From an uncultured Eubacteriales bacterium (lineage in GTDB: Bacteria; Bacillota; Clostridia; Christensenellales; Aristaeellaceae): DNA of 64,000 bases. Numbering within the stretch: position 1 is the first letter of the stretch; every line of letters begins with the position of its first letter. The notes beneath the pieces are model-generated. The model saw only the letters and a program-made list of their open reading frames with translations, did no database searches and was not told where the DNA came from. Shown here piece by piece: positions 1-20,079 of this stretch. A program made the position numbers and the translations under genes. The stretch covers positions 83,592 to 147,591 of the forward strand of contig OMZY01000006.1 of assembly GCA_900315675.1 (NCBI GenBank). The letters run 5' to 3'.

Positions 1-581
1 GCCCAGCACCATTCGTCATAGAAATTCTGCACCGCGAAGGGCAGCCGTTCAAAGAAACTGTAGTCCTCCAGCGCAAAGAGACTGAAGCGGTTGGCGTATT
101 CCGCCTCCTCCGGATCCAGCCAGTCGGTGCTGAACCAGTCTGAAAGCGGGAAACCGATTCCCTGCTCCTTAAAGATCAGGCCGCAGATAATCCGGCCGGC
201 CACGATCAGCAGGCAGGCGCCCACCACCGCGGAGTCCATGATCCGGGACCCCGGCTGCTTCGTGATTTTGCCCGTCAGCCATGCCGCCAGCATACCGCCG
301 CCCAGCGCGCCCCACAGCAGGAAGCCGCCTTCGTTCACCCGGAATATCATCCCGAAGCCTTCGTTGCCCAGAATTTCGTCAATCATAAACAGGCAGAAGC
401 CCAGCCGCGCCAGTGCAAAGCAAAGCGGAACCGCCAGCAGGGCAAACCAGCCGGCGGTTTCCTTTTTCAGTCCTGCCTTCCCCATGCTCCGGGCTGCCAG
501 CAGCAGCGCGCCCAGCGCCGGAAGAATCATCAGCAGGCCGAAGGGGTAGATGGTCAGAAAACCCAGTTTGATCGGTTCCAT
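1..581 (-). CDS. Lgt-like polytopic membrane protein (partial, C-terminus off the window)
   Basis: The reading frame is open from an ATG at 581 to the window edge, giving 193 residues. It starts three bases after the stop of the upstream glycosidase gene and has a GAGGAA ribosome site. The protein is very hydrophobic. A segment reading NEGGFLLWGALGGGMLAAW, followed by MDSAVVGACLLIVAGRI, resembles the Gly-rich and D...GR segments of prolipoprotein diacylglyceryl transferase (Lgt), but the usual His before the Gly-rich loop is Trp and the RxGNFxN motif is not kept. A homologous protein lies at 18166-19104 beside a second glycosidase. I infer a membrane enzyme or carrier acting on a lipid or lipid-linked substrate. 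True Lgt activity is unlikely on motif grounds. Confidence 0.6.
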   Translation of the reverse strand, partial: MEPIKLGFLTIYPFGLLMILPALGALLLAARSMGKAGLKKETAGWFALLAVPLCFALARLGFCLFMIDEILGNEGFGMIFRVNEGGFLLWGALGGGMLAAWLTGKITKQPGSRIMDSAVVGACLLIVAGRIICGLIFKEQGIGFPLSDWFSTDWLDPEEAEYANRFSLFALEDYSFFERLPFAVQNFYDEWCW

Positions 582-584
582 CTC

Positions 585-1583
585 TTATTCCTCAACATAG
601 CCTTCCGCGGATGCAAAGTAAATAATATCGGTAATCTCCCGCAGGCCGGGGGTCTTGCAGATCTTCTTGTTGTTCATGATCAGGTTGGTGGATCCGCCGC
701 CGTCAAAGTTGTAGGCGATGATGGCTTCCGGCACTTTTTCCGCGACCAGTTCCGCGAATTCCTCCAGCGTCAGGCCCGCGGTGGAATCCGTCTGGCCGAA
801 CACTTCCACAATGGCATACTCCAGGTGACCGGTCTGCACCAGCGCAATCCGCTGCTGGGGATAGCTCCACTGATAGTCTCCCTGCTGTGCCGCCTGGGAG
901 GAGGCGATATCCTGCACTTCTCCGTTGATCACCAGGGCGGGGCCCAGGTTGAAGGTATCCATGATCGTCCTGCCTTCAGGGGTCAGTGTTTCTTCCGTAA
1001 ATGCCTCAATATCCTTTGTTCTGGCATGGGGAACAATGTGGAAATCTCCCTCGCTGTCCACCACCAGCATATCGAAGCAGATGGGCTGCCCCTTCTTTTT
1101 CCGGGTGGTGTCCGTCGCGTCCCGGATAAACTCGCCCTGCCGGACCACGTAGCCCACGTCGTTTTCATATTTGAAGAAGTCGCCGTTCATGGCCACCACG
1201 GCATTCTTGCTCTTGGCAATGTCCTCACCCTTAGCTCGGCCATTGCCGCTGTAGGTGTCCTTGCTCACCGCGGTGCGCAGCTGAGAGGCGTCCTGGATTT
1301 TCACCCGGACAACCCAGACCTCGTGCTTCACGCTCTTGCCCTTCACCTTGGCGGTCACAGAGCTTTTTTCCGAGGTGACTTCAATCGTGGAATCGCTGTA
1401 AGCCACGGGAAGCTTTCCGTCGTAGGTCCATTTTTCCTTTTCCGTTTTGACGCCGCCTTTGGTAAAGTCCATCGGCAGTTTCACGGCGTCTTCCGCCACC
1501 ACGATCGACGGGCAGGAAAGACCGGCTGCCATCGCAAGCAGCAGCAGTACGGCAGCAATCCAGCGGATCAGATTACGGTTCAT
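585..1583 (-). CDS. Secreted phosphodiester glycosidase family protein (NAGPA/DUF2233)
   Basis: The 332-residue protein has an N-terminal signal peptide (hydrophobic residues about 8-28, ending near VVAEDA). The NAGPA fold is marked by AVVAMNGDFF near residue 131, GYVVRQGEF, FNLGPALVINGE, QRIALVQTG and the C-terminal NFDGGGSTNL motif. Family members cleave sugar-phosphodiester bonds (alpha-GlcNAc-1-phosphodiester in the animal enzyme); the bacterial substrates are mostly unknown. The start follows AAGGAG by eight bases. The gene sits between a DUF6273 lipoprotein gene (upstream, 12 bases) and the Lgt-like gene (downstream, 3 bases), which suggests one operon acting at the cell envelope. A paralogue lies at 19108-20079. 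Confidence 0.82.
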   Translation of the reverse strand: MNRNLIRWIAAVLLLLAMAAGLSCPSIVVAEDAVKLPMDFTKGGVKTEKEKWTYDGKLPVAYSDSTIEVTSEKSSVTAKVKGKSVKHEVWVVRVKIQDASQLRTAVSKDTYSGNGRAKGEDIAKSKNAVVAMNGDFFKYENDVGYVVRQGEFIRDATDTTRKKKGQPICFDMLVVDSEGDFHIVPHARTKDIEAFTEETLTPEGRTIMDTFNLGPALVINGEVQDIASSQAAQQGDYQWSYPQQRIALVQTGHLEYAIVEVFGQTDSTAGLTLEEFAELVAEKVPEAIIAYNFDGGGSTNLIMNNKKICKTPGLREITDIIYFASAEGYVEE

Positions 1584-1595
1584 GGCATTATCTCC

Positions 1596-2480
1596 TTACT
1601 CTTCGGTACCGGCCGGAGCGATCTCATAGGGATCCTCCAGGGTGCCGGATCCTGAAATGATCCTGTAACTGCCTTCCGCCAGGTACAGGGCAGGACGGAC
1701 TCCCTCATTGTCCCGGCCGACCTCGATCCGGCCGACCTGGCCGCCGTCCTTGGTGCAGACTGCCTGCTTCTTGTCCGTGGTGGACGGTGACCGGCCCCAG
1801 TAGGGACTGCAGGATCCGTACTTGGACTGGAACACATACAGGCGTTTCTCCCCCAGCGTGATGTTCGCGGTATCCGTGGCGTTCCGTACCTTTGCCTTCG
1901 GATCCGGATATTCCGCCGGATCAAATCCGTTGTTTTTGATGGCCCATTCGGTTCCCCAGGCGCGGACGGCGGGATTCTCCTCAATCTGCTTCAGCGTCGG
2001 GTCCTTCTTGGATGTCCAGGCTCCCAGGCCGATCTCCTTGTTTTTCATATCCTCCCGGGTAATCAGGAACACCTTGCCGAAGTTCTCACAGGGAAGCAGC
2101 ATGGACAGCTCCTCCTCCGTGAAGGCCTCCTCCGCGAAGGTGGTGTTCAGGTAGCCGCACAGCTCCGTCTGCGCAAAATCGCCTTTGAACTTTGCGTATT
2201 CGTTCCGGTTGTTGTGCAGCGCCCGGGCAAAGAGGATATATTCGCTCAGCAGGTAGGCCTTCTCGTCGTCCCTGGTCAGCACCCGCCACAGGATCGGTTC
2301 CACGCCGCCCTCTGCGGTCTGCGGATAGCGTCCCAGCCGCAGATAGGTATAGCCTTTTTCTTTGGAATAGCCTTCCAGCCCGTCTTCAGCAAGGGCGCAG
2401 GAAGCCAGCAGAAGAACCGCCGCCAGCAGCGCCGCCAGCCATTTTCTTCCCGGAATCCGGGTGTTCTTCCGTATCTTCAT
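1596..2480 (-). CDS. DUF6273-type secreted or lipid-anchored protein
   Basis: The 294-residue product begins at the ATG at 2480, chosen because AAGGTG lies eight bases upstream and the signal peptide starts there; the alternative start at 2516 adds 12 residues. The signal ends in LLLASCALAE, a possible lipobox with Cys. The mature part begins with a LRLGRYPQ...PILWRVL stretch and ends with SPYWGRSPS and GVRPALYL, the pattern of the DUF6273 domain common in surface proteins of gut Clostridia. Its biochemical role is unknown. It is the first gene of the run leading into the phosphodiester glycosidase and Lgt-like genes. Confidence 0.7.
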   Translation of the reverse strand: MKIRKNTRIPGRKWLAALLAAVLLLASCALAEDGLEGYSKEKGYTYLRLGRYPQTAEGGVEPILWRVLTRDDEKAYLLSEYILFARALHNNRNEYAKFKGDFAQTELCGYLNTTFAEEAFTEEELSMLLPCENFGKVFLITREDMKNKEIGLGAWTSKKDPTLKQIEENPAVRAWGTEWAIKNNGFDPAEYPDPKAKVRNATDTANITLGEKRLYVFQSKYGSCSPYWGRSPSTTDKKQAVCTKDGGQVGRIEVGRDNEGVRPALYLAEGSYRIISGSGTLEDPYEIAPAGTEE

Positions 2481-2619
2481 TGCTGTTTCACCTTTCTGAA
2501 TTAAAAAGCGATCCATGACTCATGGACATCCTGTTTATTATAGCATTTCCTGATTGTTTTGCATAGGGGAATCCTGCCTGTTTACACTTGTAAAAAGAAA
2601 GCGGCGCCCCTGTCAAACA

Positions 2620-2649: not shown

Positions 2650-2702
2650 TGTATAGCTGTACTGACGTATTGTAAATATGAAATAAATTGCAGGGAATCT
2701 AC

Positions 2703-4610
2703 ATGGCTACAGATCGGAAGAAAAAGTTCCGGATTGCATTTCTGACAGCCGACTGGAACTACGAACTGGTGGAAAGCACCCTCCACGGGCTCACGCAGTA
2801 TACCGTGGATCATCCGGATGTTCAAATCCGTGTATTCGACTGCTTCGGCAAGGATCAGGGCAATGATAAGGACCGGAGTGAATACACGATTTTTCAGCTG
2901 CCCAATTTATCCTGTTTTGACGGTCTGCTCATCCAGAGCAACCAGATTGTCCTCCGTTCCGCGAGGGAATCTCTTGAAAAGCAGATAGAAGAAAGCGGTA
3001 TCCCTGCTGTTGCCATCGGTCAGGAAATGAAGGGGTGCTCCCTTGTTTTCTTTGACAACATCCAGGCCCAATACGATATTGCCGAGCATGTGATCCGTGA
3101 GCACGGTGCTCGCCGCCTGGCCTATCTCACCGGTAACCTGCACTGCGGGTCTGAAGGACCGGACCGGCTGAGCGGTTTCCTGGCTGCCTGCCGGGACAAC
3201 GGTATCCCCAAGGAACAGGTCGAAATTGTTGAATGCACCTGGCGCACCAGCGATGCCGTAAACCTGGCAAAGCGCTGGATCCGGGAAAAGCATCCCCTGC
3301 CCGACGCTTTCCTCTGTGCCAACGATGAAATGGCTCTTGGCCTGATGGAAACGCTGCAGGAGAACGGCCTGCGGATCCCGCGGGATGTACTGGTCTGCGG
3401 TTTTGACAACCTGCCCTCCGCGGAGCTGTCCAGTCCCCGCCTTTCCACCGTCCATACCGATCACAGCAAACTGGATTATTTTGCGGCGGATGTACTCCTC
3501 GGCTTGATCCGCGGGGTGGAATCACGCACGCGTATTTCCTTCGGATATGACCTGATCTGTTCCGAATCCTGCGGCTGCCACAACGCGCCTCGCCGGGGTG
3601 TGATCCGGGATCTGTATTTCCAGCAGACCCGTTTCCTCCGTTCCTTCTATATCCAGCAGGACCTGATGGCTGAAGAACTGTTTGAAGCCCAGGACCTGCA
3701 GGATCTGATGCGTATTTTCAACCGGAGCCACGCCATCTTCGGCTGTGAGCATGTCTATCTGTGCATCAACGAATACTATTACGATAATTATGATAAAAAC
3801 ATGTGGCCGCGTTACGCGGAACATTTTGATTCCAACATGGTGCTGTTCGACAGCAGCTCGGATAACGAAGTCGTCCGTTTCCCCACCAGCAGTCTCCTGC
3901 CGGAGCGCCTGATGGAGAACGAGCCCTTCCTGATCTTTTATCCCCTGCATTACAACACCTATTCCATCGGTTACATTGTCATGAACGGGATCTGCGGCGC
4001 GGCAAAGCACAACCTGCACGAAAGCATCCTGAACTTCCTGGAAATTGCCATTGAAAACGTGCGGAAAAAGAGCCTGCTCCATAACCTGAACGATACCCTG
4101 GACGAGCTGTACGTCCATGACGCGCTCACCGGACTGTACAACCGCTTCGGTCTTACCCGTTTCGGTCAGCAGCGCTATGATGACCTGATCCTTTCAGAGG
4201 GATCCGTCCAGGTTCTTTTCATTGATATGAACGATATGAAGGCCATCAACGATCAATTCGGCCATGAGTCCGGCGACGCCGCCCTGAAGGCTGCCGCCCG
4301 GATCCTCCAGCGGATCTGTTCCGAAGACGCCTTCATCATGCGCTATGGCGGCGATGAGTTCATCATCATCGACAGCGGTGTCAGTCCTTCCCTCTGTGAC
4401 GAAATCAACGCCGCTGCGGAGCAATACAACCTCACCTCCGGCGTCCCCTTCACCCTGAGCCTGTCCGTCGGTGTTGTCCGGACCGATGTCCTGGAGCGGA
4501 AACCGCTGGACGAATGCATCCGGGGGGCGGATTCCCTGATGTACCGTAACAAGCAAATGATAAAAGCTGCCCGTAAAGCCGGGCAGCCGGTTCCGGATCA
4601 ACCGGAATAA
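2703..4610 (+). CDS. Sugar-binding-protein-like sensor fused to a GGDEF diguanylate cyclase
   Basis: The 635-residue cytosolic protein starts at an ATG preceded by AGGGA. Residues about 5-285 match the periplasmic-binding/LacI ligand-binding fold (AFLCANDEMALGLMETL, VLVCGFDNLPSAELSSPRLSTV), but there is no N-terminal DNA-binding helix-turn-helix. Residues about 300-445 look GAF-like and lead through a helical linker into DALTGLYNRFGL. The GGDEF domain carries an intact RYGGDEF active-site loop. The usual RxxD inhibitory site five residues upstream is not present. I infer a sugar- or metabolite-responsive cyclic-di-GMP synthase. No membrane segment or signal peptide is visible. Confidence 0.8.
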   Translation: MATDRKKKFRIAFLTADWNYELVESTLHGLTQYTVDHPDVQIRVFDCFGKDQGNDKDRSEYTIFQLPNLSCFDGLLIQSNQIVLRSARESLEKQIEESGIPAVAIGQEMKGCSLVFFDNIQAQYDIAEHVIREHGARRLAYLTGNLHCGSEGPDRLSGFLAACRDNGIPKEQVEIVECTWRTSDAVNLAKRWIREKHPLPDAFLCANDEMALGLMETLQENGLRIPRDVLVCGFDNLPSAELSSPRLSTVHTDHSKLDYFAADVLLGLIRGVESRTRISFGYDLICSESCGCHNAPRRGVIRDLYFQQTRFLRSFYIQQDLMAEELFEAQDLQDLMRIFNRSHAIFGCEHVYLCINEYYYDNYDKNMWPRYAEHFDSNMVLFDSSSDNEVVRFPTSSLLPERLMENEPFLIFYPLHYNTYSIGYIVMNGICGAAKHNLHESILNFLEIAIENVRKKSLLHNLNDTLDELYVHDALTGLYNRFGLTRFGQQRYDDLILSEGSVQVLFIDMNDMKAINDQFGHESGDAALKAAARILQRICSEDAFIMRYGGDEFIIIDSGVSPSLCDEINAAAEQYNLTSGVPFTLSLSVGVVRTDVLERKPLDECIRGADSLMYRNKQMIKAARKAGQPVPDQPE

Positions 4611-6015: not shown

Positions 6016-6975
6016 TCACTGCACGGATTGGTCGGTTTCGTTCTTTTCCGTTTCCTGTTTCAGGTGTTCGGTCCGCCAGGGCTCAGGCATGTTCTCCGGG
6101 TCGGAATCCGCGAACGGTTCATAAACCTTGGAATGGAAAATCCGCTGGATAACCTCCTGGTGCGGATGCTGCACCCATCCCTTCGACCGGGATGTGCCCC
6201 TCGCTTCGATCAGGCAGTCCGGCAGGGCCGCCTGCAGCATCTTCACGGTCGCCTCGTCCGGGGATTCCAGGTCATCCTTGATGTTCCGGTAAATCCACAG
6301 CCGTTTCAGGCTCTTGATCTCCGCCAGGGGGGACAGATCCTCCACATAGTTCTGCACCAGGTCCAGGTCCATCAGGTGGTCCAGGTCTTTCAGGCAGGAG
6401 ACGTCCGTTATCCGGTTATGGAAGATTTCCAGGTATTCCAGATGCTTCAGGCTCGCGATCGGCGTAATATCCGTCAGATCGCACAGTGCCACAATCAGCA
6501 CCCGGAGTTCCGGCATTTCATAAAGGAAGTCCAGCTTCTTCACCGGATGGTGCCCGATATCCAGGGCATACAGGTTTTTGCACCATGTCAGCATTTCTAT
6601 TTCCTCATAGGAATGCTGCCGGTCTCCCCCGCTGTAGAGGGTGGAGAAGGCGGTGTCATCCGTCCGGACCCGGTGCCGTCCGTAGCGGAACTGGACGCCG
6701 AACTCCACATCCGGGAAAAGCTCGTTCAGTTTTTTGTACACTTTCAGGTTGATCACCGTATTGTACATATCTACTTTTTTGAGGTTCGGCAGCTGCTGCA
6801 GAAAAGCGTAAAAACCGTCCCAGTCAGTTACGCCGCGTTTCTCCAGATCCACATATTCTGTATCTGTGCTGACCGTAATTCCGCGGTAAGTGACTGTTCT
6901 TTTCTCCTCCGCCGAAACAGGCGCGAGGAGCATCAGCAAAAGCAGCAGAAGCGCTCCAGTCCTTTTGAAAACCAT
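6016..6975 (-). CDS. Secreted leucine-rich-repeat-like protein (copy A)
   Basis: The 319-residue protein has a signal peptide ending near APVSAEE. The body has repeated LxxLxxLxI units (for example LKHLEYLEIFHNRITDVSCL and LKRLWIYRN), typical of a short leucine-rich-repeat solenoid, preceded by HRVRTDDTAFSTLYS. It shares this unusual motif and the order of its segments with the protein at 17222-18193, so the two are paralogues. No enzyme motif is visible. It may bind another envelope protein or a glycan; that is inference. The tail is highly charged. It lies 40 bases upstream of the deacetylase start on the same strand. Confidence 0.65.
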   Translation of the reverse strand: MVFKRTGALLLLLLMLLAPVSAEEKRTVTYRGITVSTDTEYVDLEKRGVTDWDGFYAFLQQLPNLKKVDMYNTVINLKVYKKLNELFPDVEFGVQFRYGRHRVRTDDTAFSTLYSGGDRQHSYEEIEMLTWCKNLYALDIGHHPVKKLDFLYEMPELRVLIVALCDLTDITPIASLKHLEYLEIFHNRITDVSCLKDLDHLMDLDLVQNYVEDLSPLAEIKSLKRLWIYRNIKDDLESPDEATVKMLQAALPDCLIEARGTSRSKGWVQHPHQEVIQRIFHSKVYEPFADSDPENMPEPWRTEHLKQETEKNETDQSVQ

Positions 6976-10067: not shown

Positions 10068-11621
10068 TCAGCCAAGACCTTTTTCTGCCAGTCCTATATT
10101 GTACATAAACTCTCCTGCCCAGTAGATCGTGCCCGCCACATATTCCTCCTGCTTTCCTTCAAAGAAGAAGCGGACCCGCTTCGTTCCTGAATTCTTGCAC
10201 AGGGTATTCACCATGCTGTAGCAGGCCAGGGGTTCTTTTTCCTTTCCCTGTTCCTGGATCCGGATCCGGAAGTTTTCGCTCAGGTTCACCAGCAGCGTAT
10301 CTCCTTCTGCGGAAATACCCAGGATATCGTCCTCCCGGATGTCTCCGGGCAGCGTAGCCGCTATTCCGCCTTCCCGCTCGGTCTCGTCAGGCCCTTCCAT
10401 CAGGGCGCATAGCTGTGCCCGCAGGCTGTCCACGGACCGGCGTGCCACCGGTCTTTCACATTCACAGAGGATCCCGTTCCGGGCAAAATATACGGTGACG
10501 CTGCTTGTCAGGAACTGTTCCACCGCGCTGCGCCGGACCATGCCGCTCAGCGCGATCACGGGTTCAAACCGCGGCGTTTTCAGCTCTGTTTGCGGTTTGT
10601 CACCGATCCGGATACAGACCACGGAAATATCGGGGATGAAGGTGGTCAGTGTATAGGTCATCGACGCGGCGAAGCAGGCCAGGTCTGTTCTGGCGGCTTC
10701 CAGGATGCTTTCCGCGTCCTCCCGCAGGTTCAGCGTCATCAGCCTTCCGCCGTCCGGCAGGTCGCTGATCACGGGATCCCGCAGCAACAGGTCTCTCAAT
10801 TCCGGAAAGGACTGTCCGCCGGTCAGGCTCCTCCGGATGCTGCTGACCTCATCCATCAGTGCTACCGCCAGCTGGGACGGATCCTGCCCTTCAAAATTGA
10901 CCATCCGGATGGTACAGGCCATGCCCCGGTTGTCCGGCAGCGGATAATACAGCGTCGCCAGCGCGTTCAGCGGATTCTTCCTGGGATCCTTGTTGGTCGG
11001 CGTCATCGGGGTTTTTTTCGCTTCCATCTGTTCCCACAGCACCGGAAGCGATTCCCCCGCGTGGCCCATCAGGGTTCCCATGGGCAGGTATCCGGGAGTG
11101 TCCAGCGGAATGCTCTCATCCTCCACCAGCACATTCACCCCGTTGATATCGTTCAGCTCGCACAGGGTCGTGGCGATGGCCAGGCAGTTTTTGTAGTAAT
11201 TGCTCAGTTTCAGTTCCTTGGCGGTACGGGTCAGGTTAACCGTGCATACGCCTCCGCTGATCTCAATGGGATGCGTGCCGTACAGTTCCAGCGGCTTCGT
11301 TCCGCCCATGGCCAGCGCGTCCTTGTCTCCTTCATAGGAAAGCAGCTGCTGCATCAGTTTTTCCACGGCATCGTTCAGGTTCTCCGCTTCCAGCAGTACA
11401 CTGCGGGAAACCAGGCGCAGCCCATCCCTGCCCGGCAGATAGATACTGTATTCCCGGCTCTCGGTGACCATGCCGTCTCCGTCCGGCGCGGTATAACGCG
11501 CTTCTGCCGGTGGAAGGGTTGAAACCGGCGTCCGGGCTTCTTCGGTCTTTTGTCCTGTGCATCCGGACAGGAGAAGCAGGCAGCAGAGAGCCAGCAAAAG
11601 GCATACTCCTTTTTTCATCAT
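10068..11621 (-). CDS. GerMN-domain lipoprotein of a two-component operon
   Basis: The 517-residue protein has a lipoprotein signal (LLLLSGC), so it should be anchored outside the membrane. Two regions resemble GerMN domains: residues about 75-175 (GGVCTVNLTRTAKEL then CLAIATTLCEL) and about 370-505 (TLLVNLSENFRIRI, MVNTLCKNSGTKRVRFFF, then TIYWAGEF). Its ATG overlaps the kinase stop in an ATGA, so translation is coupled. Order regulator-kinase-lipoprotein recalls actinobacterial mtrA-mtrB-lpqB, in which the lipoprotein modulates the kinase; the beta-propeller of LpqB is absent here. The domain occurs in spore-germination GerM, but that alone does not show sporulation. Confidence 0.78.
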   Translation of the reverse strand: MMKKGVCLLLALCCLLLLSGCTGQKTEEARTPVSTLPPAEARYTAPDGDGMVTESREYSIYLPGRDGLRLVSRSVLLEAENLNDAVEKLMQQLLSYEGDKDALAMGGTKPLELYGTHPIEISGGVCTVNLTRTAKELKLSNYYKNCLAIATTLCELNDINGVNVLVEDESIPLDTPGYLPMGTLMGHAGESLPVLWEQMEAKKTPMTPTNKDPRKNPLNALATLYYPLPDNRGMACTIRMVNFEGQDPSQLAVALMDEVSSIRRSLTGGQSFPELRDLLLRDPVISDLPDGGRLMTLNLREDAESILEAARTDLACFAASMTYTLTTFIPDISVVCIRIGDKPQTELKTPRFEPVIALSGMVRRSAVEQFLTSSVTVYFARNGILCECERPVARRSVDSLRAQLCALMEGPDETEREGGIAATLPGDIREDDILGISAEGDTLLVNLSENFRIRIQEQGKEKEPLACYSMVNTLCKNSGTKRVRFFFEGKQEEYVAGTIYWAGEFMYNIGLAEKGLG

Positions 11622-13090
11622 GCCTCTTCTCCTTCCTGGGGGAATGTCACCACAAACTCGGAGCCCTTTCCCGGAGTGCTCCGGACGGTAATCGTACCGT
11701 CATGCATCCGGACCATCTGCTTCACAATGCTCAGGCCCAGGCCCGTGCCGCCGGTCTCCCGGCCTCTGGCTTTATCCACCCGGTAGAAACGTTCGAATAT
11801 ATGCTCCTGGTCTTCCTCCGGAATACCGATGCCGTTATCCCGTACCCGCCAGACCACATTGCCGTCCTCTTCCCGCAGGGACACGGAAATCTGTCCGTCC
11901 TCCGGGGTATATTTGATAGCATTGTCCATCAGGTTGTACAGGATCTGACTCAGCTTGCTCCGGTCTCCGTACAGGAACATTTCTTCCTGCACTTCCTCTG
12001 TAATCGTCTGCCGGTTCTTTTCCGCAGCGGGCGTCAGCTGGTGGATGGTCTCCCGGGTCAGCTCGGTCATATTCACGATGCCGCGCTTCATTTCCTCTCC
12101 GTTGTCCATCCGGGTCAGCACCAGCAGATCCGTCACGATCCCGGTCAGCCGGTCGATTTCATGGTTCATATCCTGCATGAAATCCTCCCGGACCTCGGAT
12201 GGCATATCCGGCTGGTACAGCATGGATTCCAGCAGAATCTTCATCGTGGCCAGCGGCGTTTTCAGCTCATGGCTGGCATTGGATACGAACTGGTTCCTGG
12301 TCTTGTCCAGGCTTTCAAGCTGGGCAGCCATGGTGTTGTAGTTTTCCGCCAGTTCCCGCAGTTCTCCGCTGCCCCTGACCGGCACGCGGACGCTCAGGTC
12401 ACCCTTCCCCATCTTTCTCATGGTCCGGCTGACGGCGGTGATCGGATTGGTCAGCAGTCGGCTCAGAAGCAGCGCGAAAGCCAGCGCCACCACCGCAATC
12501 ACGGCAAACACGCGGATCAGCTGCACCTGCACCCGGTTCACGGAGTCCATCATGCTCTGCACGTTGCTCACAAACAGCGCCGCGCCGATCCGGCCCTTGT
12601 AGCCGTTCATCTCATGGGCGCTGCAGGCAATGTAATCGGCGGGTTCGCCGATCATCGTCTCCACAACCTCCCTGCCCGGATTGTGGATACTGTAATCCTC
12701 CGTTGCCTCGCCCGTCAGGATCCGGATTGCTTCATCCACCTGGATTCGCTGTCCGCACAGGCTCTGGAAGGTATCATACTGGATTTTCCCGTCATTGTCG
12801 GTCAGGATCAGCCGGCCGCCCATGGTTTCCGCTTCCTCTTCCAGCAGATCGTTCAGTTCGCTGGAGGAAACAGACTGAAAAAGAGGAGCCGCCTTCTGGG
12901 CAAGCTTCTCGGTCTTCAGGGTATCGTCCCGTCTCCGCTGTTCATACAGATAGTCGCTGACGATCCCGGTCATGCTTTTTGCCGCTACGATAAAAGAAAT
13001 GCCTACAATGAGAAAAAAGGCCAGCAGGATCTTCCACCTGATGCTGGCCAAGAATGCGAGTTTAGTCCTGATCCGTGAAATAGTAACCAA
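11618..13090 (-). CDS. Membrane sensor histidine kinase (WalK/PhoR type)
   Basis: The product has a first membrane helix (ILLAFFLIVGISFIVAA), an extracytoplasmic domain of about 140 residues and a second helix (LIRVFAVIAVVALAFALLL). These are followed by HAMP, HisKA with SNASHELKTPL (phospho-His) and HATPase with LMDNAIKYTPEDG, RDNGIGIPEED and GGTGLGLSIV. It should phosphorylate the regulator encoded just upstream. The start is uncertain. No ATG exists near the first helix. TTG codons lie at 13138, 13090 and 13051, and an ATT at 13081 has GGGGAG at ideal spacing. I use 13090 as a compromise; the gene overlaps the regulator's 3' end. Confidence 0.85.
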   Translation of the reverse strand: MVTISRIRTKLAFLASIRWKILLAFFLIVGISFIVAAKSMTGIVSDYLYEQRRRDDTLKTEKLAQKAAPLFQSVSSSELNDLLEEEAETMGGRLILTDNDGKIQYDTFQSLCGQRIQVDEAIRILTGEATEDYSIHNPGREVVETMIGEPADYIACSAHEMNGYKGRIGAALFVSNVQSMMDSVNRVQVQLIRVFAVIAVVALAFALLLSRLLTNPITAVSRTMRKMGKGDLSVRVPVRGSGELRELAENYNTMAAQLESLDKTRNQFVSNASHELKTPLATMKILLESMLYQPDMPSEVREDFMQDMNHEIDRLTGIVTDLLVLTRMDNGEEMKRGIVNMTELTRETIHQLTPAAEKNRQTITEEVQEEMFLYGDRSKLSQILYNLMDNAIKYTPEDGQISVSLREEDGNVVWRVRDNGIGIPEEDQEHIFERFYRVDKARGRETGGTGLGLSIVKQMVRMHDGTITVRSTPGKGSEFVVTFPQEGEEA

Positions 13091-13754
13091 CTCCCCATTT
13101 GGTAAAGATGAATTCAGGCTTTGATGTGTCCCGTTCAATCTTTTCCCTCAGACGGCGGATATGTACGTCCACCGTACGGGCGTCGCCGGCATAATCATAT
13201 TTCCAGACGGTTTCAAGCATCTGTTCCCTGCTGAAAACAGTGCCCCGGTTGGTCACGAACATCTGCAGCAGGTCAAATTCCTTGGCGGTCAGCTTAATGT
13301 CCTTGCCGCCCAGGGTCACGCTGCGCTTGATCAGGTTCACTTCCATATCGTGAACCCGGATCACCCGGTGCTCCTGCTGCTGGACACTTCCGGATACACG
13401 GCGGAGAATCGTCTTGATGCGCGCCTTCACCTCAAGGATGTTGAAAGGCTTGGTCATATAATCATCCGCGCCGTACTCAAGGCCGAGGATCTTGTCCATA
13501 TCCTCTCCCTTGGCCGTCAGCATGATGATCGGAATATCGCTCCGTTCACGAATCCGCTGGCAGACAGCAATACCGTCCAGCTTCGGAAGCATCACGTCGA
13601 GAAGGATCAGGTCAAAAGAACCCGTCTCAAACTTGGACAGGGCCTCTTCTCCGTCCATGGCACTGTCCGTCTCGTAACCTTCCTGTTCCAGCGTATATTT
13701 CAGGCCCTTCAGGATCAGAGGTTCGTCGTCCACCAGGAGGATCCTTTTACCCAC
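13062..13754 (-). CDS. OmpR/PhoB-family response regulator
   Basis: The 230-residue regulator has a receiver domain (VDDEP acidic pocket, LILLDVMLPKLDG with the phospho-Asp, Lys in MTKPF) and a C-terminal winged helix (LTAKEFDLLQ, RTVDVHIRRLREKIE, KWGVGYYF). The start is the GTG at 13754, with AGGG eight bases upstream; an in-frame GTG at 13763 is the alternative. It is closest in style to WalR/PhoP regulators. It heads the operon with the kinase and the GerMN lipoprotein, and a good sigma-A promoter lies upstream. Confidence 0.9.
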   Translation of the reverse strand: MGKRILLVDDEPLILKGLKYTLEQEGYETDSAMDGEEALSKFETGSFDLILLDVMLPKLDGIAVCQRIRERSDIPIIMLTAKGEDMDKILGLEYGADDYMTKPFNILEVKARIKTILRRVSGSVQQQEHRVIRVHDMEVNLIKRSVTLGGKDIKLTAKEFDLLQMFVTNRGTVFSREQMLETVWKYDYAGDARTVDVHIRRLREKIERDTSKPEFIFTKWGVGYYFTDQD

Positions 13755-13787
13755 TGAAAACACCCTTTCGTAACCAATACTGTACGA

Positions 13788-13912: not shown

Positions 13913-15178
13913 TTATTCGTAGCTGACGCCGGTACCCGAATTGTTGTATCCCATCAGGATGATCAGCGTACGTCCCCGCTGCATTTCGATCTCATTTCCG
14001 TCCGGTCCGTAGAAAACCGTGCGGTGGTCATAATCCTCCCGTTCCCATACACCGGCGATATGCTTGCCGCCCATAAAGTAATCGGCGTTTCCCCGGCCGG
14101 TCAGCACGGGATCCGGCCGTGCGCCGCCCCGCCATTTCATCGTGATGCCCTGGACAATCACGTTGCTGAAGGTGATGGTGTTCCCGGGCACGCGGTCCTC
14201 ATAGGCAACCCTGCGGGCAATCCGCCCGTCGCTCAGCTTGTCGTCCACATTTTCCGCGCCGATCAGCGTGGTCTCCCGGTAGGGCATATCCACGGATTTC
14301 TTCACGGACATATAGCGGATATACACGTTGTCGTCCGGGTCATACTCCAGGCGGCTGTCGGAATCGTACTGGCTCCCGAAGGTTACATATACAATGGAAG
14401 CGTTATCCCCTTCTGTGGGCAGCTCGTCCGTGAATTTCCAGGTATGGTTTGCCGGCACATGGTCCTTCGGAACCACGTTCTCCAGCAGGTCCTTCAGCAG
14501 GAACACTTCACTGTTGGCGTCCTTGATGCCCCTCAGGCGTCTGACGTACTTCTTCCAGGGTTTGTTTTCCCCCGCGTCGCCCACATAGACCACGCCCGGA
14601 TCCTTTTCGTTCCGGTTCTTGGACATCGGGTTCTTTACGCCCAGGATCCGCCACTCGTCCGGCACATCCGCCTTGGTGTAGCCGGAGGTGCAGAAAAACG
14701 CGTTCCATTCCTGCCGGATCCGCGGATGAGTTGCGCGCGTACTGCGCACAAAGCCCACATAATCCGGAATCGTATCGGAAAAAATCATGCTCATGCGGGT
14801 TTCGGCGCCGCCCTTCCGCTGGCAGGCCTCATAGACCACGTCCGCGTAGGAGCCGTTCACCGGCGCGGGCGCGTACAGTCCTCCCGCCACCGTCCCCACG
14901 CCGTTGTTGGCATTGGAGATCTGAACCATGAAGGGGGTGTATTTTCCGGTCACCGCCGCGCCGGCAAAACTTTCCGGCACCTGGATCCCGCTCAGTTTCC
15001 GGCCGGTGGTCGGACTGATGCCCATCGCGATCATTTCCTCCGCGGACGGGTTCAGGCCTGCCGGCTTCACCTCAATCTCCCTGGGCGTAACACCGTCAAT
15101 CGCTTTCGGCTCCGCCGCGGCAAACGCCGCGCACAGGATCAGGGCCAGTACCAGGAACAATCCAGTCAGCTTCTTCAT
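13913..15178 (-). CDS. Secreted DUF3048 (YerB-family) protein, copy 1
   Basis: The 421-residue product starts at an ATG with GGAAGG upstream and has a signal peptide ending AAFAAAE. DUF3048 N- and C-terminal domains are recognised by YADVVYEACQRKGGAETRMSM, IPDYVGFVRSTRATHPRIRQEW, and at the end ADYFMGGKHIAGVWERED and GRTLIILMGYN. There is no lipobox Cys after the signal, unlike typical YerB lipoproteins. The function of the family is not established. It is a tandem duplicate of the gene at 15326-16585, with clearly similar sequence over the whole length. Confidence 0.8.
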   Translation of the reverse strand: MKKLTGLFLVLALILCAAFAAAEPKAIDGVTPREIEVKPAGLNPSAEEMIAMGISPTTGRKLSGIQVPESFAGAAVTGKYTPFMVQISNANNGVGTVAGGLYAPAPVNGSYADVVYEACQRKGGAETRMSMIFSDTIPDYVGFVRSTRATHPRIRQEWNAFFCTSGYTKADVPDEWRILGVKNPMSKNRNEKDPGVVYVGDAGENKPWKKYVRRLRGIKDANSEVFLLKDLLENVVPKDHVPANHTWKFTDELPTEGDNASIVYVTFGSQYDSDSRLEYDPDDNVYIRYMSVKKSVDMPYRETTLIGAENVDDKLSDGRIARRVAYEDRVPGNTITFSNVIVQGITMKWRGGARPDPVLTGRGNADYFMGGKHIAGVWEREDYDHRTVFYGPDGNEIEMQRGRTLIILMGYNNSGTGVSYE

Positions 15179-15276
15179 GTTTTTTCCTTCCGGTATATCC
15201 GGAGCCGCCGTGGTACCGGCCTGTCCCCTGATATCCTTCTTCATAATACTGCAGGATGCTGCAGCGCCTGTTCTTA

Positions 15277-15325: not shown

Positions 15326-16585
15326 TTATTCGTATTTTACGCTTCTGCCCTTGCTGTTGTAGTCCATCAGGATGATCAGGGTCTTGCCGCGCATCAGTTC
15401 GATTTCGTTGCCGTCTTCGCCGTAGAACACCGTGCGGCTGTTGTAGTCCTTCCGTTCCCACATGCCGGTATAGTGTTTGCCGCCGATGAAATAGTCGGCG
15501 TTGCCCTTGCCGGTCAGTTCGGGATCGGGACGTTCGCTGCCGAACCAGTTCATCTTGATGCCCTGGACGATAACGTTGGTGAAGGTGATCAGTTCGCCGT
15601 ATACGCGGTCATCCGGATCCACCATGGTCAGCTTCGCGCCGTTCACATTCTTCGCGGTCAGCTTCGGGTTCACCAGGGTCTGGGTGCGGTAGGCAAAGTC
15701 GTCCTTGCCGTCAATCGGGATGTAGCGGATGTATTCGTTGTTTTCCTCATCATATTCCAGACGGCTGTCGGTCTTGGTGCCGCCGCCGAAGGAAACATAG
15801 ACGATCTCACCGGAGTCGCCGCCGGCGGGAACTTCATCCGTGAATTTGAAGGTGTGGTTGGCGGGAACATGGTCCTTCGGAATCACGTTCTGCACAATGT
15901 TCGCCAGCTGGTACACATGGTCGTTGGCGTCGAATATGTTGGTGCAGTGGAACATGTACTTGGCCCACACCTTCGGGAAGTTCTGCACGTAGACCAGTCC
16001 GGGGTTGTCCGGCGTGGCCTTCTGGGGGCTCATCACGTCGAAGCGCTGCCACTCCTTCGGAACATCCGCGGAAGAGTAACCGGACGTCACAAACGCGCAG
16101 TCCCATTCCTGACGGATTCTCGGATGGGTGGCACGGGTGCTGCGGACAAAGCCCACATAATCCGGAACGGTATCGGAGAAGAGCATGCTGAAACGGGTCA
16201 GGCTGCCGCCGTTGGCGGAGTTCGCCTGGCAGGCTTCGTACACCACATCGGCATAGTTCGCGTTCACCGGAGCGGTGGTGGGTCTGCCCTTGGAGTCCAC
16301 GTTCACGCTGCCGCCGGCATTGGAAATCTGAACCAGGATCGGCTGATAGTCGCCGGTCACGGCGGTTCCGACAAATCCTTCCGGAGCTTCGATTTCATCC
16401 AGCTTCCGGCCGGTGGTGGGGCTGATCATCTGGCCGATCATTTCATCCGCGGACGGATTCAGGCCGGCTTCATTGATCTTGATATTCCGGGATGCAAGAC
16501 CGTCGATAACGGTCGGCTCCGCGAGAGCCGCAGACATGCTGAAAATCAGTATGAAAGCAAGGATCATACTCAGCAGTTTTTTCAT
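15326..16585 (-). CDS. Secreted DUF3048 (YerB-family) protein, copy 2
   Basis: The 419-residue protein has a signal peptide ending SAALAEP and the same DUF3048 landmarks as its neighbour: YADVVYEACQANSANGGSLT, VPDYVGFVRSTRATHPRIRQ, PKDHVPANHTFKFTDE, ADYFIGGKHYTGMWERKDY and GKTLIILMDYN. GGAGG lies ten bases before the ATG. A terminator separates the two copies, so they can be expressed independently. Presumed location is the outer face of the membrane or secreted. The family role is unknown. Confidence 0.8.
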   Translation of the reverse strand: MKKLLSMILAFILIFSMSAALAEPTVIDGLASRNIKINEAGLNPSADEMIGQMISPTTGRKLDEIEAPEGFVGTAVTGDYQPILVQISNAGGSVNVDSKGRPTTAPVNANYADVVYEACQANSANGGSLTRFSMLFSDTVPDYVGFVRSTRATHPRIRQEWDCAFVTSGYSSADVPKEWQRFDVMSPQKATPDNPGLVYVQNFPKVWAKYMFHCTNIFDANDHVYQLANIVQNVIPKDHVPANHTFKFTDEVPAGGDSGEIVYVSFGGGTKTDSRLEYDEENNEYIRYIPIDGKDDFAYRTQTLVNPKLTAKNVNGAKLTMVDPDDRVYGELITFTNVIVQGIKMNWFGSERPDPELTGKGNADYFIGGKHYTGMWERKDYNSRTVFYGEDGNEIELMRGKTLIILMDYNSKGRSVKYE

Positions 16586-16755: not shown

Positions 16756-17202
16756 ATGAAAAAAACGGCTTCTTTTCTTCTGGCTCTCATGTTCTGCCTG
16801 TTTTCGCTGATTCCGGTTGTTTCAGCGGAAAACAAGGTTGAGGAATACACTGAACTGCTGACAGGCACCTGGAAGGTTGTCTGGCGTTATCTTCCGCAGA
16901 CCGCCATGGCGCTGAACAAAATCAGTGATCCTGTCAAGCCGGTTAACCTTTTTGTCTTCCCCGGGGAGCTGGCCAAGGCGGGCATGACCGTTACCAGCTA
17001 CCTGACCGGGGACGATACCGGTGAGGTCTGGCTCACCCTGGTGACCGCCGGCAGCTCCCACGGCATCGTCAGCTTTGACGGCGGTTTCTACGGCAGGGTT
17101 TCCCTTTCTGCCGACCACAACAACCTGCTGCTGACCGGGCTGGACGGCGCCGCTGTTCTCTATACCCGTGCGGACGGCACGGATACCGATTCCGAAGAAT
17201 GA
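16756..17202 (+). CDS. Small secreted protein of unknown function
   Basis: The 148-residue protein has a clear signal peptide (residues 1-24, ending VVSAEN) and a Gly-rich ribosome site before the ATG. The mature part is beta-strand-like with a short TGTWKVVWRY start, which recalls lipocalin or META-like beta-barrels, but I cannot assign a family. It ends in an acidic DGTDTDSEE tail. The next gene starts 20 bases later on the same strand, so the two are probably co-transcribed. Confidence 0.55.
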   Translation: MKKTASFLLALMFCLFSLIPVVSAENKVEEYTELLTGTWKVVWRYLPQTAMALNKISDPVKPVNLFVFPGELAKAGMTVTSYLTGDDTGEVWLTLVTAGSSHGIVSFDGGFYGRVSLSADHNNLLLTGLDGAAVLYTRADGTDTDSEE

Positions 17203-17221
17203 TACCCGGAGGTTCCTGTTT

Positions 17222-18193
17222 ATGAATCTGAAATCCCTGGTTTCCCTGCTGCTTTGCTTCTGCCTGGTCCTGGCCTGCGGTGCCGTCCTGGGTGAAGAGA
17301 TCACCCTGTCTGTCGGCAGCCAGACCTTTTCCGCGTCTCCGGACGCCGTGGAACTCGACCTGGGCGAATTAAAGCTGCCGGACACGGATGAAGCCTATGC
17401 GGCTCTGGAGACCTTTCTGCAGCAGCTGCCTTCCCTGACCCGTCTGGATATGTTTGCCACCGATATCCCGGTGGACCGGGTTCTGTACCTGGGTGAGAAA
17501 TATCCGCAGATCCGGTTCGGCTGGACCATCCTCATTCCCTGCAAGAACACGGAACGGAAGGACCGTCCCCCGCACCGCCTCCGCACGGACCAGACAGCCT
17601 TCTCCACCCAGCACAATCTTTCCTGCACCTCCCATGGCCAGGATATCTGGGAAATCCTGAAGTACTGTCCTGACCTGCTGGCGCTGGACCTGGGTCACAA
17701 CAATTCCATTGACGACCTGTCCTTCCTGAGGTACTGCCCGAAACTGCGGGTGCTGATCATTTCCTTCAACATCTGGCAGCGGGGTGAAAAAAAGCCTTAC
17801 GTCGATATCTCCCCCATCGGGGAAATGAAGGATCTGGAGTACCTGGAAATCTGCAAGAGCAACGTGGCGGATATTGCTCCGCTGGCCAACTGCACCAAAC
17901 TGGTGGACCTGAACATCTCCACCAGCTATATCAAGGACCTGTCTCCGCTCTCCGGGCTGAAAAGCCTTCGCCGGCTTTACCTTTACGGCTGTGACGGAAC
18001 GGGCAAGCCCATTGATAAAAACAAAGTCCGGGAACTGCAGGAACAGCTTCCGGACTGCGTGATCAACAATACCCATGTAAACTGCGGCGGTCAGTGGCGT
18101 CACCACCACCGCTATGACACCCTGGCGCATATGTTCAGCTATCAGCTGCTGGACAAGCCCCAGGCTTACGAACCCTTCGATAATCTGGACTGA
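17222..18193 (+). CDS. Secreted leucine-rich-repeat-like protein (copy B)
   Basis: The 323-residue product begins at the ATG at 17222, which has GGAGG nine bases upstream. The signal peptide contains Cys in CLVLACGAVLGEE, so lipid anchoring is possible but the lipobox is poor. Repeats such as CPDLLALDLGHNNSIDDLSF, LEYLEICKSNVADIAPL and LKSLRRLYLYG form a leucine-rich-repeat-like solenoid. HRLRTDQTAFST matches HRVRTDDTAFST of the copy at 6016-6975, and both end in a YEPF segment. The last 28 bases overlap the converging Lgt-like gene. Function unknown. Confidence 0.65.
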   Translation: MNLKSLVSLLLCFCLVLACGAVLGEEITLSVGSQTFSASPDAVELDLGELKLPDTDEAYAALETFLQQLPSLTRLDMFATDIPVDRVLYLGEKYPQIRFGWTILIPCKNTERKDRPPHRLRTDQTAFSTQHNLSCTSHGQDIWEILKYCPDLLALDLGHNNSIDDLSFLRYCPKLRVLIISFNIWQRGEKKPYVDISPIGEMKDLEYLEICKSNVADIAPLANCTKLVDLNISTSYIKDLSPLSGLKSLRRLYLYGCDGTGKPIDKNKVRELQEQLPDCVINNTHVNCGGQWRHHHRYDTLAHMFSYQLLDKPQAYEPFDNLD

Positions 18194-19104
18194 TTCTTCC
18201 CCGCTGCCCGGACTCCCGCGGCGATCATGCCGGCGGAGCACAGGGCGAAAACGATAATGGCCAGCGTGCCGGCGTCCACACTTTCCGGCAGCGGGAACAA
18301 ATACGGTTTGTCCTGGACGAACTGCATCAGCGCGTTCAGGCCCATCAGCAGGGCTGTCACAATGGCAGGCCCTGCTTTTTTGATCCTTACGGACAGGCGG
18401 ATTACCAGGATCAGCAGGATCACCGCACAGATCACCTGATCCAGGTGGATAAAGCTGATAATGAACGGAATCCAGTAATTGACGATCAGCATTTCCAGGA
18501 ACAGCTGCAGGCTGCACAGGACAATACAGGCCTTCTCAAAAGCGCCTTTGACACCCGCCTGTCGCTTTTCGGAAATCAGGAGCCATACGGCGCAGCCTGC
18601 CGCCGTGATTGCCTCCAGCGTGAACACCGCGAGACTGGCTCCCCAGGCGTCCTTCAGCGCAAAGGGAAATACCTCCGGCAGGAAGGAGGGCATATCCCCC
18701 TGGCCGATGGTTTCCATCCCTGCTTCCGCCATCCGGGCAAAGATGATCAGGATGCAGCCGGGCACGGCAAACAGATCCAGCGCCTTCCCGCCGGGAACCC
18801 GGAGGATTCCGGCCGCAACCCGGATGCCCAGCACAAAGCCCAGGCAGCCGCCCGCAAAGGAAAGTTCCTCCCACCGGGGCAGGAACATGGTTTCCGCGGA
18901 CCAGTTCCGGAGATCCAGGCCCGCGTTATGCAGCAGGAAAAAGAGCTTCGCGCCGGCATATGCCAGCGGAAGCCCCAGAATCATCCCGATCAGCGCGCAC
19001 AGGCGCTTTTCACCGGCCTTTCCCAGGCGGTATGCAAACAGGAGGCCGGAAACCGCCAGCCCCGCGGCATACAGTCCAAGGATCAGCGTCATGTTTTCTT
19101 CCAT
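18166..19104 (-). CDS. Lgt-like polytopic membrane protein (paralogue of 1-581)
   Basis: The 312-residue protein has about seven hydrophobic helices. The N-terminal third aligns in pattern with the partial protein at 1-581: a GLLFAYRLGKAGEKR segment matches ALLLAARSMGKAGLKK, then a Gly-rich SFAGGCLGFVLG segment and a LDLFAVPGCILIIFARMAEAG segment follow. This resembles Lgt topology without its catalytic motifs. The ATG lies three bases after the glycosidase stop, with GAGGGG at nine bases. The conserved pairing with a phosphodiester glycosidase suggests a joint envelope function. Acyl or glyceryl transfer would be a guess. Confidence 0.6.
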   Translation of the reverse strand: MEENMTLILGLYAAGLAVSGLLFAYRLGKAGEKRLCALIGMILGLPLAYAGAKLFFLLHNAGLDLRNWSAETMFLPRWEELSFAGGCLGFVLGIRVAAGILRVPGGKALDLFAVPGCILIIFARMAEAGMETIGQGDMPSFLPEVFPFALKDAWGASLAVFTLEAITAAGCAVWLLISEKRQAGVKGAFEKACIVLCSLQLFLEMLIVNYWIPFIISFIHLDQVICAVILLILVIRLSVRIKKAGPAIVTALLMGLNALMQFVQDKPYLFPLPESVDAGTLAIIVFALCSAGMIAAGVRAAGKNQSRLSKGS

Positions 19105-19107
19105 GGT

Positions 19108-20079
19108 TTACAGCCCCTCTGCCGAAACAAAATAGATCACATCCTGCAGCTTGCGGATAGACTGGTTCGGCTTCTCGTTGATCCGTTTTCCGTGGAAATA
19201 CAGTAGCGAGGAATCCCCGCCGTCCAGGTTGTAGGCGGTCTTCACACCCTGCTGCCCGACCAGGCGGGTAAAATCCGTCAGCGTCAGGCCTGTGCTCTTC
19301 ATCAGGGTGCTGGTGTTCGTATAGGGTCCGCTGCAGCAGACCACCTTGTAATGCAGCTTCTCTACCTGGCAGAAGGCGATCCGCTGGCGCTCATACTCCC
19401 GTCCCATGTTCATCCAGGTATCCGCGCCGTCAAAATCCTGTACCGTTTCACCGTCCACCACCAGCGCGGGGCCGAAGCAGAAGGAGTTCATAATACGTTT
19501 TCCGTCCGCCTTCATCTCCGCGATGTCACCGGATTTCGCCCGGCGGATAATATGAAAATCACCGTCTTCGTCGATCGCCAGCACATCCATCAGGTGGCTG
19601 TTCCACCGTCCGGCGGTATCCAGGTTATCCCTGAACAGCACGCCCTGGCGCACCACATAGCCGAAGTCCAGCTTCTCCGTGCCGTTCACAAAGTCGCCGT
19701 TCAGACCCAGCACCGCGTTCAGGATATTGCACAGTTCCAGTCCGTCGCGGGTACCCTTGCTCCGGAAATCCCCCTTGGCAGCGGAAGTCCGGATCTGGGA
19801 AGGATCCTTGATGGTGATATCCGCGGTCCAGTAATCGCAGCGGTCTTCAAACCGGCCGGATTCGATCACAACCGCGATTGTGCTGTCCTGGTAGCCGTTT
19901 TCCGTATAGTTTTCTTCAATCGCTCTTTGGTCCAGAATGGCAAAGTCCACAGGCAGCAGATAATTCCTGTCGGAAAAATCAAGGCTCGGAAGCTCTCCGC
20001 CAAGAGCAGACGCCGCCTGTGTGCACAGGAAGGCTGCCAGAATCAGCGTCGCAAACAGCTTTCGAAGTATCTTTTTCAT
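19108..20079 (-). CDS. Secreted phosphodiester glycosidase family protein (NAGPA/DUF2233), paralogue
   Basis: The 323-residue secreted protein (signal peptide ending TQAASALGGE) has AVLGLNGDFV, FGYVVRQGVLF, FCFGPALVVDGE, QRIAFCQV and YNLDGGDSSLLY. These are the same landmarks as in the copy at 585-1583. In this copy the DGGGS loop reads DGGDS and the first loop ends GDFV rather than GDFF. It is followed after three bases by the Lgt-like gene. The ribosome site is weak. Its sugar-phosphodiester substrate is unknown. Confidence 0.8.
   Translation of the reverse strand: MKKILRKLFATLILAAFLCTQAASALGGELPSLDFSDRNYLLPVDFAILDQRAIEENYTENGYQDSTIAVVIESGRFEDRCDYWTADITIKDPSQIRTSAAKGDFRSKGTRDGLELCNILNAVLGLNGDFVNGTEKLDFGYVVRQGVLFRDNLDTAGRWNSHLMDVLAIDEDGDFHIIRRAKSGDIAEMKADGKRIMNSFCFGPALVVDGETVQDFDGADTWMNMGREYERQRIAFCQVEKLHYKVVCCSGPYTNTSTLMKSTGLTLTDFTRLVGQQGVKTAYNLDGGDSSLLYFHGKRINEKPNQSIRKLQDVIYFVSAEGL

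Follow-up and report, generated by a model that had tools for sequence, protein, structure and literature searches.

Co-inherited NAGPA and Lgt-like genes form a family of envelope cassettes within one genus of Clostridia and may act on lipid-carried sugars

Within one genus of Clostridia, an envelope unit composed of two genes is present in several copies; one gene encodes a secreted phosphodiester glycosidase of the NAGPA family and the other a polytopic membrane protein derived from Lgt. The two genes form a co-inherited cassette. Relatives of the NAGPA protein are often located beside genes predicted to produce lipid-carried sugars, and the unit therefore probably handles such sugars in an undescribed way. 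The window referred to below is the whole stretch of DNA that was analysed, 64,000 nucleotides in length (contig C53, positions 83592-147591, of an assembly of 3.6 Mb).

Both NAGPA/Lgt-like pairs that the initial annotation had proposed for the window are present. At each site a NAGPA gene is followed, after a gap of 3 bases and on the same (minus) strand, by the gene of a polytopic membrane protein. The secreted NAGPA proteins, encoded at 585..1583 (copy 1, 332 amino acids) and 19108..20079 (copy 2, 323 amino acids), start with an N-terminal signal or anchor and are members of PF09992 (63.6 and 67.7 bits, respectively, at a cut-off of 25). The Lgt-like gene of the first pair (1..581) is truncated at the window edge; the complete gene (C53:83111-84172) encodes 353 amino acids and matches PF01790 with 71.6 bits. 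Its counterpart in the second pair (18166..19104, 312 amino acids) displays no Pfam match. A DUF6273 gene (1596..2516, minus strand; PF19789, 35.9 bits) is located 12 bases upstream of NAGPA copy 1 and likely belongs to the same operon; its homologues adjoin a NAGPA gene in all six fetched loci that hold one, a count biased by the choice of loci around NAGPA and LGT.

Several further genes surround the two pairs. Downstream of the complete Lgt-like gene of copy 1, at a distance of 90 bases and in the same orientation, is an RnfC-like gene (C53:81650-83020; L009:5651-7021). Within the window, 2688-4610 encodes a LacI-type periplasmic-binding domain and a GGDEF domain in one protein, 10068-11621 a Germane domain (PF10646) protein directly downstream of a sensor kinase gene, and 13913-15244 and 15326-16585 tandem DUF3048 proteins located between the two pairs. 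A response regulator/sensor kinase pair is found at 11618-13763, and a similar pair stands directly after a solo Lgt-like gene elsewhere (L041:2534-5503), which may have lost its NAGPA partner. Another solo Lgt-like gene shares bases with the end of a gene for a P-type ATPase (L040:121-3452; PF00122).

The initial annotation read the two sites as one duplicated two-gene unit. Instead, they belong to a genus-wide family of cassettes, of which the genome under study holds six, counting the second pair of the window. This genome contains 12 NAGPA and six LGT matches. The ordinary Lgt (C48:427532-428233, 227.9 bits) has no NAGPA match within its fetched neighbourhood of 15 kb, while each of the other five LGT matches (36.3-87.7 bits at a PF01790 cut-off of 24.9 bits) is located directly downstream of a NAGPA gene; window copy 2, invisible to this model, is the sixth Lgt-like protein. 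For the remaining six NAGPA genes, a profile made from the six Lgt-like proteins gives only one match of 15.2 bits, in an apparently non-coding frame.

The LGT profile was searched in 41 genomes and the NAGPA profile in 32 of these. Adjacency was counted in the 17 genomes of the genus to which both profiles were applied, leaving out 8 of 25 genus genomes (all less than 80% complete), the outside genome G029, and the LGT matches of genomes without a NAGPA search. Among the matches listed, 57 of 78 divergent LGT matches have an upstream NAGPA gene on the same strand within 600 bases. Direct inspection of the other 21 revealed seven more tandem pairs, bringing the total to 64 of 78, which counts matches in related genomes and not independent events. 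Three others stand tail to tail with a NAGPA gene, yet adjacent; two are separated from it by a CapA-like gene; three are Lgt relatives of half length whose locus contains a pair as well; and six have no close NAGPA gene (five with none in the fetched stretch, one with a NAGPA gene 2.0 kb away). The intervening genes are of the CapA/PGA_cap family (L027:1427-2749, PF09587; L028:2658-3848, by sequence). By comparison, none of the 35 ordinary Lgt matches (16 in the genus, 19 outside), among the matches listed, has a NAGPA gene within 1.5 kb. The adjacency that the initial annotation suggested checking across Clostridia is strongly conserved within the genus, and this one genus is where the pairing was found.

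Across 60 pairs, among them one with overlapping reading frames that was first classed as downstream (L095), the intergenic gap has a median of 12 bases and ranges from -71 to 89. Fetched loci hold six pairs in G000 and G022, five in G002 and two in G009, and NAGPA genes occur also alone in genomes with several pairs. Four metagenome assemblies, named "Clostridia" or "Clostridiales bacterium", contain the closest named relatives of the Lgt-like protein on contig C19; the labels of two give sheep and yak gut as the source.

The distances in the NAGPA and Lgt-like trees are strongly correlated over the 60 pairs (r 0.826; highest of 1000 permutations 0.102), and the correlation persists among 34 representatives more than 1.0 apart in the Lgt-like tree (r 0.782, reached by none of 2000 permutations). 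The 71 Lgt-like proteins, together with three half-Lgt proteins, are split from 19 other Lgt proteins with a support of 0.992, two of the 20 comparison Lgt loci having contributed no sequence to this tree. The two pairs of the window belong to different clades. Given the split and the correlation, the data are most simply explained by a single Lgt offshoot that joined NAGPA once, whereupon the pair multiplied.

Secreted leucine-rich-repeat proteins recur around the pairs. Two are encoded in the window, one at 6016..6975 (minus strand; LRR_4, 60.5 bits), about 4.4 kb from the first pair, and one at 17168..18193 (plus strand; LRR_4, 47.5 bits), tail to tail with Lgt-like copy 2 with an overlap of 28 bases. 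The family is fused to NAGPA in 4 of the 60 pairs and located within 1.5 kb of a further 14. Of five such genes in the genome under study, two are found beside a pair, one is fused to an unpaired NAGPA, one is that 4.4 kb from the first window pair, and one is located elsewhere. In the four paired loci and at C19:131772-133700 (L012:1773-3701), the repeat homologue constitutes the N-terminal part of the NAGPA fusion; the latter protein (642 amino acids) has no Lgt-like neighbour, whereas in four other genomes an Lgt-like gene follows a similar fusion. At L089:2852-13121, one strand carries five NAGPA genes, one Lgt-like gene, two leucine-rich-repeat genes (one with RCC1 repeats) and one DUF6273 gene.

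The AlphaFold2 model of NAGPA copy 2 (pLDDT 89.0) begins with a long hydrophobic helix, possibly a cleaved signal. Its best PDB match by Foldseek is zebrafish NAGPA (6pki; E 2.0e-13, TM-score 0.59 of the query), and the bacterial DUF2233 structure 3ohg is matched with E 8.0e-13. Asp-Gly-Gly at 286-288 is invariant in the 79 NAGPA proteins of the fetched loci, and Arg233 is kept in 78 of them.

Comparison of folds identifies the membrane protein as an Lgt relative, in agreement with the layout noted in the initial annotation, which had also described it as devoid of Lgt catalytic motifs. This description holds for the equivalents of Arg239 and Asn146, which are lost, and fails for those of Arg143 and Glu243, which are kept. 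Conservation was assessed in 71 sequences matching a model from the bacterium's own genome with more than 60 bits, the ordinary Lgt (L024) and a half-Lgt match of 25 bits being left out; copies invisible to Pfam are under-sampled in this set, since its loci were chosen around Pfam LGT matches. Glu243 is invariant (71/71), and Arg143 and Arg246 are kept in 67 and 58 sequences, respectively. Arg239 is kept in 4 and lost in 67, with Gln in its place in 47. Position 146, the Asn of the GRxGN signature, is Glu in 63 of the 71, and Asn is absent from the residues listed. In place of His103 (HGGL motif), 28 sequences have Tyr and 16 have Phe; the ordinary Lgt of the genome under study also has Tyr. 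Window copy 1 retains Arg143 and Glu243, and displays Gln, Cys and Leu in place of Arg239, Asn146 and Arg246; Arg246 is lost in both window copies. Arg239 is described as the most conserved residue among Lgt homologues, and E. coli Lgt mutants R239A/E/H/K/Q and R246A/E/H/K/Q fail to complement (PMC4728403). Against the NCBIfam lgt models, four of the six Lgt-like proteins give matches, all below cut-off (the best being TIGR00544, 51.3 bits at a cut-off of 118.9), and two give none. Because two defining residues are missing and the NCBIfam cut-offs are failed, the protein should not be filed as Lgt.

Outside the genus, relatives of the NAGPA protein have other neighbours. A NAGPA profile built from the pairs matched in 201 of 292 genomes of the class and, at E <1e-20, in 23 of 398 genomes of the phylum, the bacterium's own genome included in both counts. 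Of the loci outside the genus, 29 from the class and 21 from the phylum, none was found to have an Lgt-like neighbour within about 1.5 kb of NAGPA. Directly beside NAGPA, a GT2-GtrA gene is present at 8 of the class and 14 of the phylum loci. At 10 class and 9 phylum loci, the NAGPA frame overlaps at its end with that of a small membrane protein. The class counts are partly circular, since the models for GT2-GtrA and the small protein include 7 and 6 class seeds, and the phylum counts are free of this. GT2-GtrA is absent at 21 of the 29 class loci, including all eight weakest (L072-L079); a GT2 match at L069 (23 bits, on the NAGPA frame) was not counted. Provided that these genomes have no more GtrA genes than three genus genomes (3-4 matches each), the proximity of NAGPA and GT2-GtrA is far above chance. 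The small membrane protein is unrelated to Lgt, displays about four hydrophobic stretches by eye, and has no Pfam match over cut-off in four members scanned; motifs are seen around FGHGVHS and GILEIAGT. The cluster of GT2-GtrA, NAGPA and small membrane protein genes, or two of the three, recurs in other Bacillota (L051-L063, L140-L157). As the small protein was not found in any of six genus genomes (the positive control, G564, gave a match; G142, searched as well, did not), the Lgt-like protein fills its slot.

A connection to lipid-carried sugars also exists within the genus. One orthologous group of pairs (the C48-type), fetched in 15 genomes, is accompanied by a GT2-GtrA fusion at all 15 loci, with Pfam domains checked in two. 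The other neighbours of this pair, whose Pfam domains were checked on single members, include a half-length Lgt relative (14 of 15 loci), a DUF1292 gene (13 of 15) and, after the pair, a gene of an acyltransferase-containing family (13 of 15; in two, the acyltransferase part lies beyond the fetched DNA). PF01553 scores 25.4 bits in the copy of this last family in the genome under study (cut-off 23) and 20.0-20.3 bits, just below the cut-off, in two copies lengthened by an additional membrane part. The same genome has three GtrA matches, one at C48 and none on the contig of the window; GT2-GtrA was seen neither beside the two window pairs nor, as far as the fetched loci extend, beside pairs outside the C48-type group. 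The link thus comes from one orthologous group and from NAGPA relatives outside the genus, and in both places it lends independent support to a connection with lipid-linked sugars, the initial annotation having suggested the editing of glycan-phosphate or lipid-linked polymers. YfhO (PF09586), the usual last enzyme of GtrA-type systems, was not found in three of three genus genomes, while B. subtilis, among the controls, gave a match; the search for GT-C enzymes covered YfhO only.

Polyprenyl-phosphate sugars, which GT2-GtrA proteins are expected to make and flip, are sugar-1-phosphodiesters, the class of bond cut by NAGPA enzymes. NAGPA enzymes release sugars linked by phosphodiester (PMC12419801). 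On these grounds, and given that YfhO went undetected, we tentatively hypothesize that the pair acts on polyprenyl-phosphate sugars outside the cell, the Lgt-like protein holding the lipid phosphate while NAGPA cuts, with release or transfer of the sugar; we favour this reading without calling it probable. Anatomy, fold, conservation, co-evolution and the linkage to GT2-GtrA are observed; we infer the substrate, the chemistry, the division of labour and the acceptor as follows. The NAGPA-fold enzyme would face the outside, secreted or held by its N-terminal helix, and its partner would contain a re-tooled lipid-phosphate site, in which Arg143, Glu243 and mostly Arg246 are kept, Asn146 has become Glu and Arg239 is lost. 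Their joint site of action would be the outer side of the cytoplasmic membrane, and their substrates polyprenyl-phosphate-linked sugars. At the C48-type locus, the GT2-GtrA protein may load and flip the sugar; the lipid phosphodiester would be bound in the cavity of the Lgt-like protein and cut by the NAGPA domain between sugar and phosphate, with release of the carrier. The sugar might then be freed or handed to a surface acceptor, and the several cassettes of a genome could differ in the sugars or acceptors that they serve.

Against this scheme stands the lack of GT2-GtrA beside the window pairs and at 21 of 29 class loci. A mismatch in stereochemistry may also exist: polyprenyl-phosphate glycosyltransferases of the GT2 type are inverting, so beta-linked carriers are expected, whereas animal NAGPA cuts an alpha linkage. 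A bolder version, which we regard as unlikely, would make the Lgt fold the basis of a new class of transferase or hydrolase that depends on polyprenyl-phosphate sugars in the outer leaflet and, jointly with a NAGPA domain, replaces the GT-C enzyme of GtrA-type systems. In that case, the GT2-GtrA/NAGPA/small-membrane-protein operon across Bacillota would represent one and the same machinery using a different membrane protein, and it would provide the missing final enzyme for surface glucans that depend on GtrA/GtrB.

The Lgt-like protein could also be a scaffold. It is conceivable, if rather doubtful, that NAGPA trims sugar-1-phosphate side groups or links of wall or lipid-anchored polymers, while its partner serves as a non-catalytic anchor or holds the substrate. 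The clear NAGPA fold and conserved residues agree with such trimming; so does the loss of Arg239 and Asn146, and of Arg246 too in the window copies, given the non-complementing R239 and R246 mutants of E. coli Lgt (PMC4728403), and the occurrence elsewhere of an unrelated small membrane protein in this slot fits a mere anchor. However, the conservation of Glu243, Arg143 and Glu at position 146 (71, 67 and 63 of 71) is more than a scaffold needs, and NAGPA has a long hydrophobic N-terminal helix of its own, although this may be a cleaved signal.

Retention of Arg143, which is proposed to face the phosphatidylglycerol donor in E. coli Lgt (PMC4728403), would also suit an enzyme that still uses this donor and moves diacylglyceryl to a sugar hydroxyl or other non-cysteine acceptor, yielding a glycolipid from sugars prepared or released by NAGPA. 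The acyltransferase-containing family after the C48-type pair points the same way, but was seen at this type of locus only, and Arg239, which contacts the C3 hydroxyl of diacylglyceryl via water (PMC4728403), is lost in 67 of 71 sequences; we consider glycolipid synthesis quite unlikely. Ancestry and fold would permit accessory lipoprotein diacylglyceryl transferases for the partner NAGPA or for special lipoproteins, which appears highly improbable: a lipobox-like motif occurs in just 2 of 60 paired NAGPA proteins, R239Q, the commonest replacement here, does not complement in E. coli (PMC4728403), and 16 of 17 genus genomes have an ordinary Lgt (>150 bits) as well. Unrelated genes inherited together without joint function, as might descend from one ancestral accident in a single genus and as the six divergent LGT matches without a close NAGPA gene might suggest, are very unlikely in view of the tree correlation, of several separate pairs that stay linked per genome although NAGPA genes also occur alone, and of the pairs that remain adjacent after tail-to-tail rearrangement (three) or carry one inserted gene (two).

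If action on polyprenyl-phosphate sugars is confirmed, this would identify an extracellular enzyme so far missing from the handling of lipid-carried sugars in many Bacillota, suggest a bacterial role for NAGPA, a common and little characterised glycosidase family, and demonstrate that the Lgt fold can be adapted to a reaction other than the one for which it is known. Assays for the sequestration of undecaprenyl phosphate exist in B. subtilis (PMC11898649). We found no description of the NAGPA/Lgt-like pair in the open-access PMC literature, which omits most subscription papers.

Compared with known systems, the secreted protein resembles NAGPA/DUF2233 (PF09992; the animal uncovering enzyme 6pki and bacterial 3ohg) in domain score, fold, and Asp-Gly-Gly and Arg residues, and differs in its pairing with a polytopic membrane protein. 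The membrane protein shares with Lgt (PF01790; E. coli structure 5azb) the fold and the equivalents of Arg143 and Glu243, but has mostly lost Arg239, mostly carries Glu for Asn146, and is linked to a NAGPA gene. Only at one type of locus is the module similar to GtrA-type systems: the C48-type locus has GT2 and a GtrA flippase domain, here fused in one protein, in common with CsbB-GtcA-YfhO glycosylation, where a GT-C enzyme moves the sugar to the polymer (PMC8035078, PMC11898649), whereas NAGPA and the Lgt-like protein, and no GT-C enzyme, are found at this locus and YfhO was not found in the three genus genomes. The surface glucan of Lactobacillus johnsonii requires GT2 and GtrA (GtrA/GtrB), no further glycosyltransferase having been found next to them, and the passages of that paper drawn on here report no link to NAGPA (PMC7117936). 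Finally, freeing undecaprenyl phosphate from UndP-sugars is the job proposed for UshA (YqjL) of B. subtilis, a putative UndP-sugar hydrolase resembling alpha-beta hydrolases and placed at the cytoplasmic side (PMC11898649); the enzyme proposed here, in contrast, would have the NAGPA fold and act on the outside.
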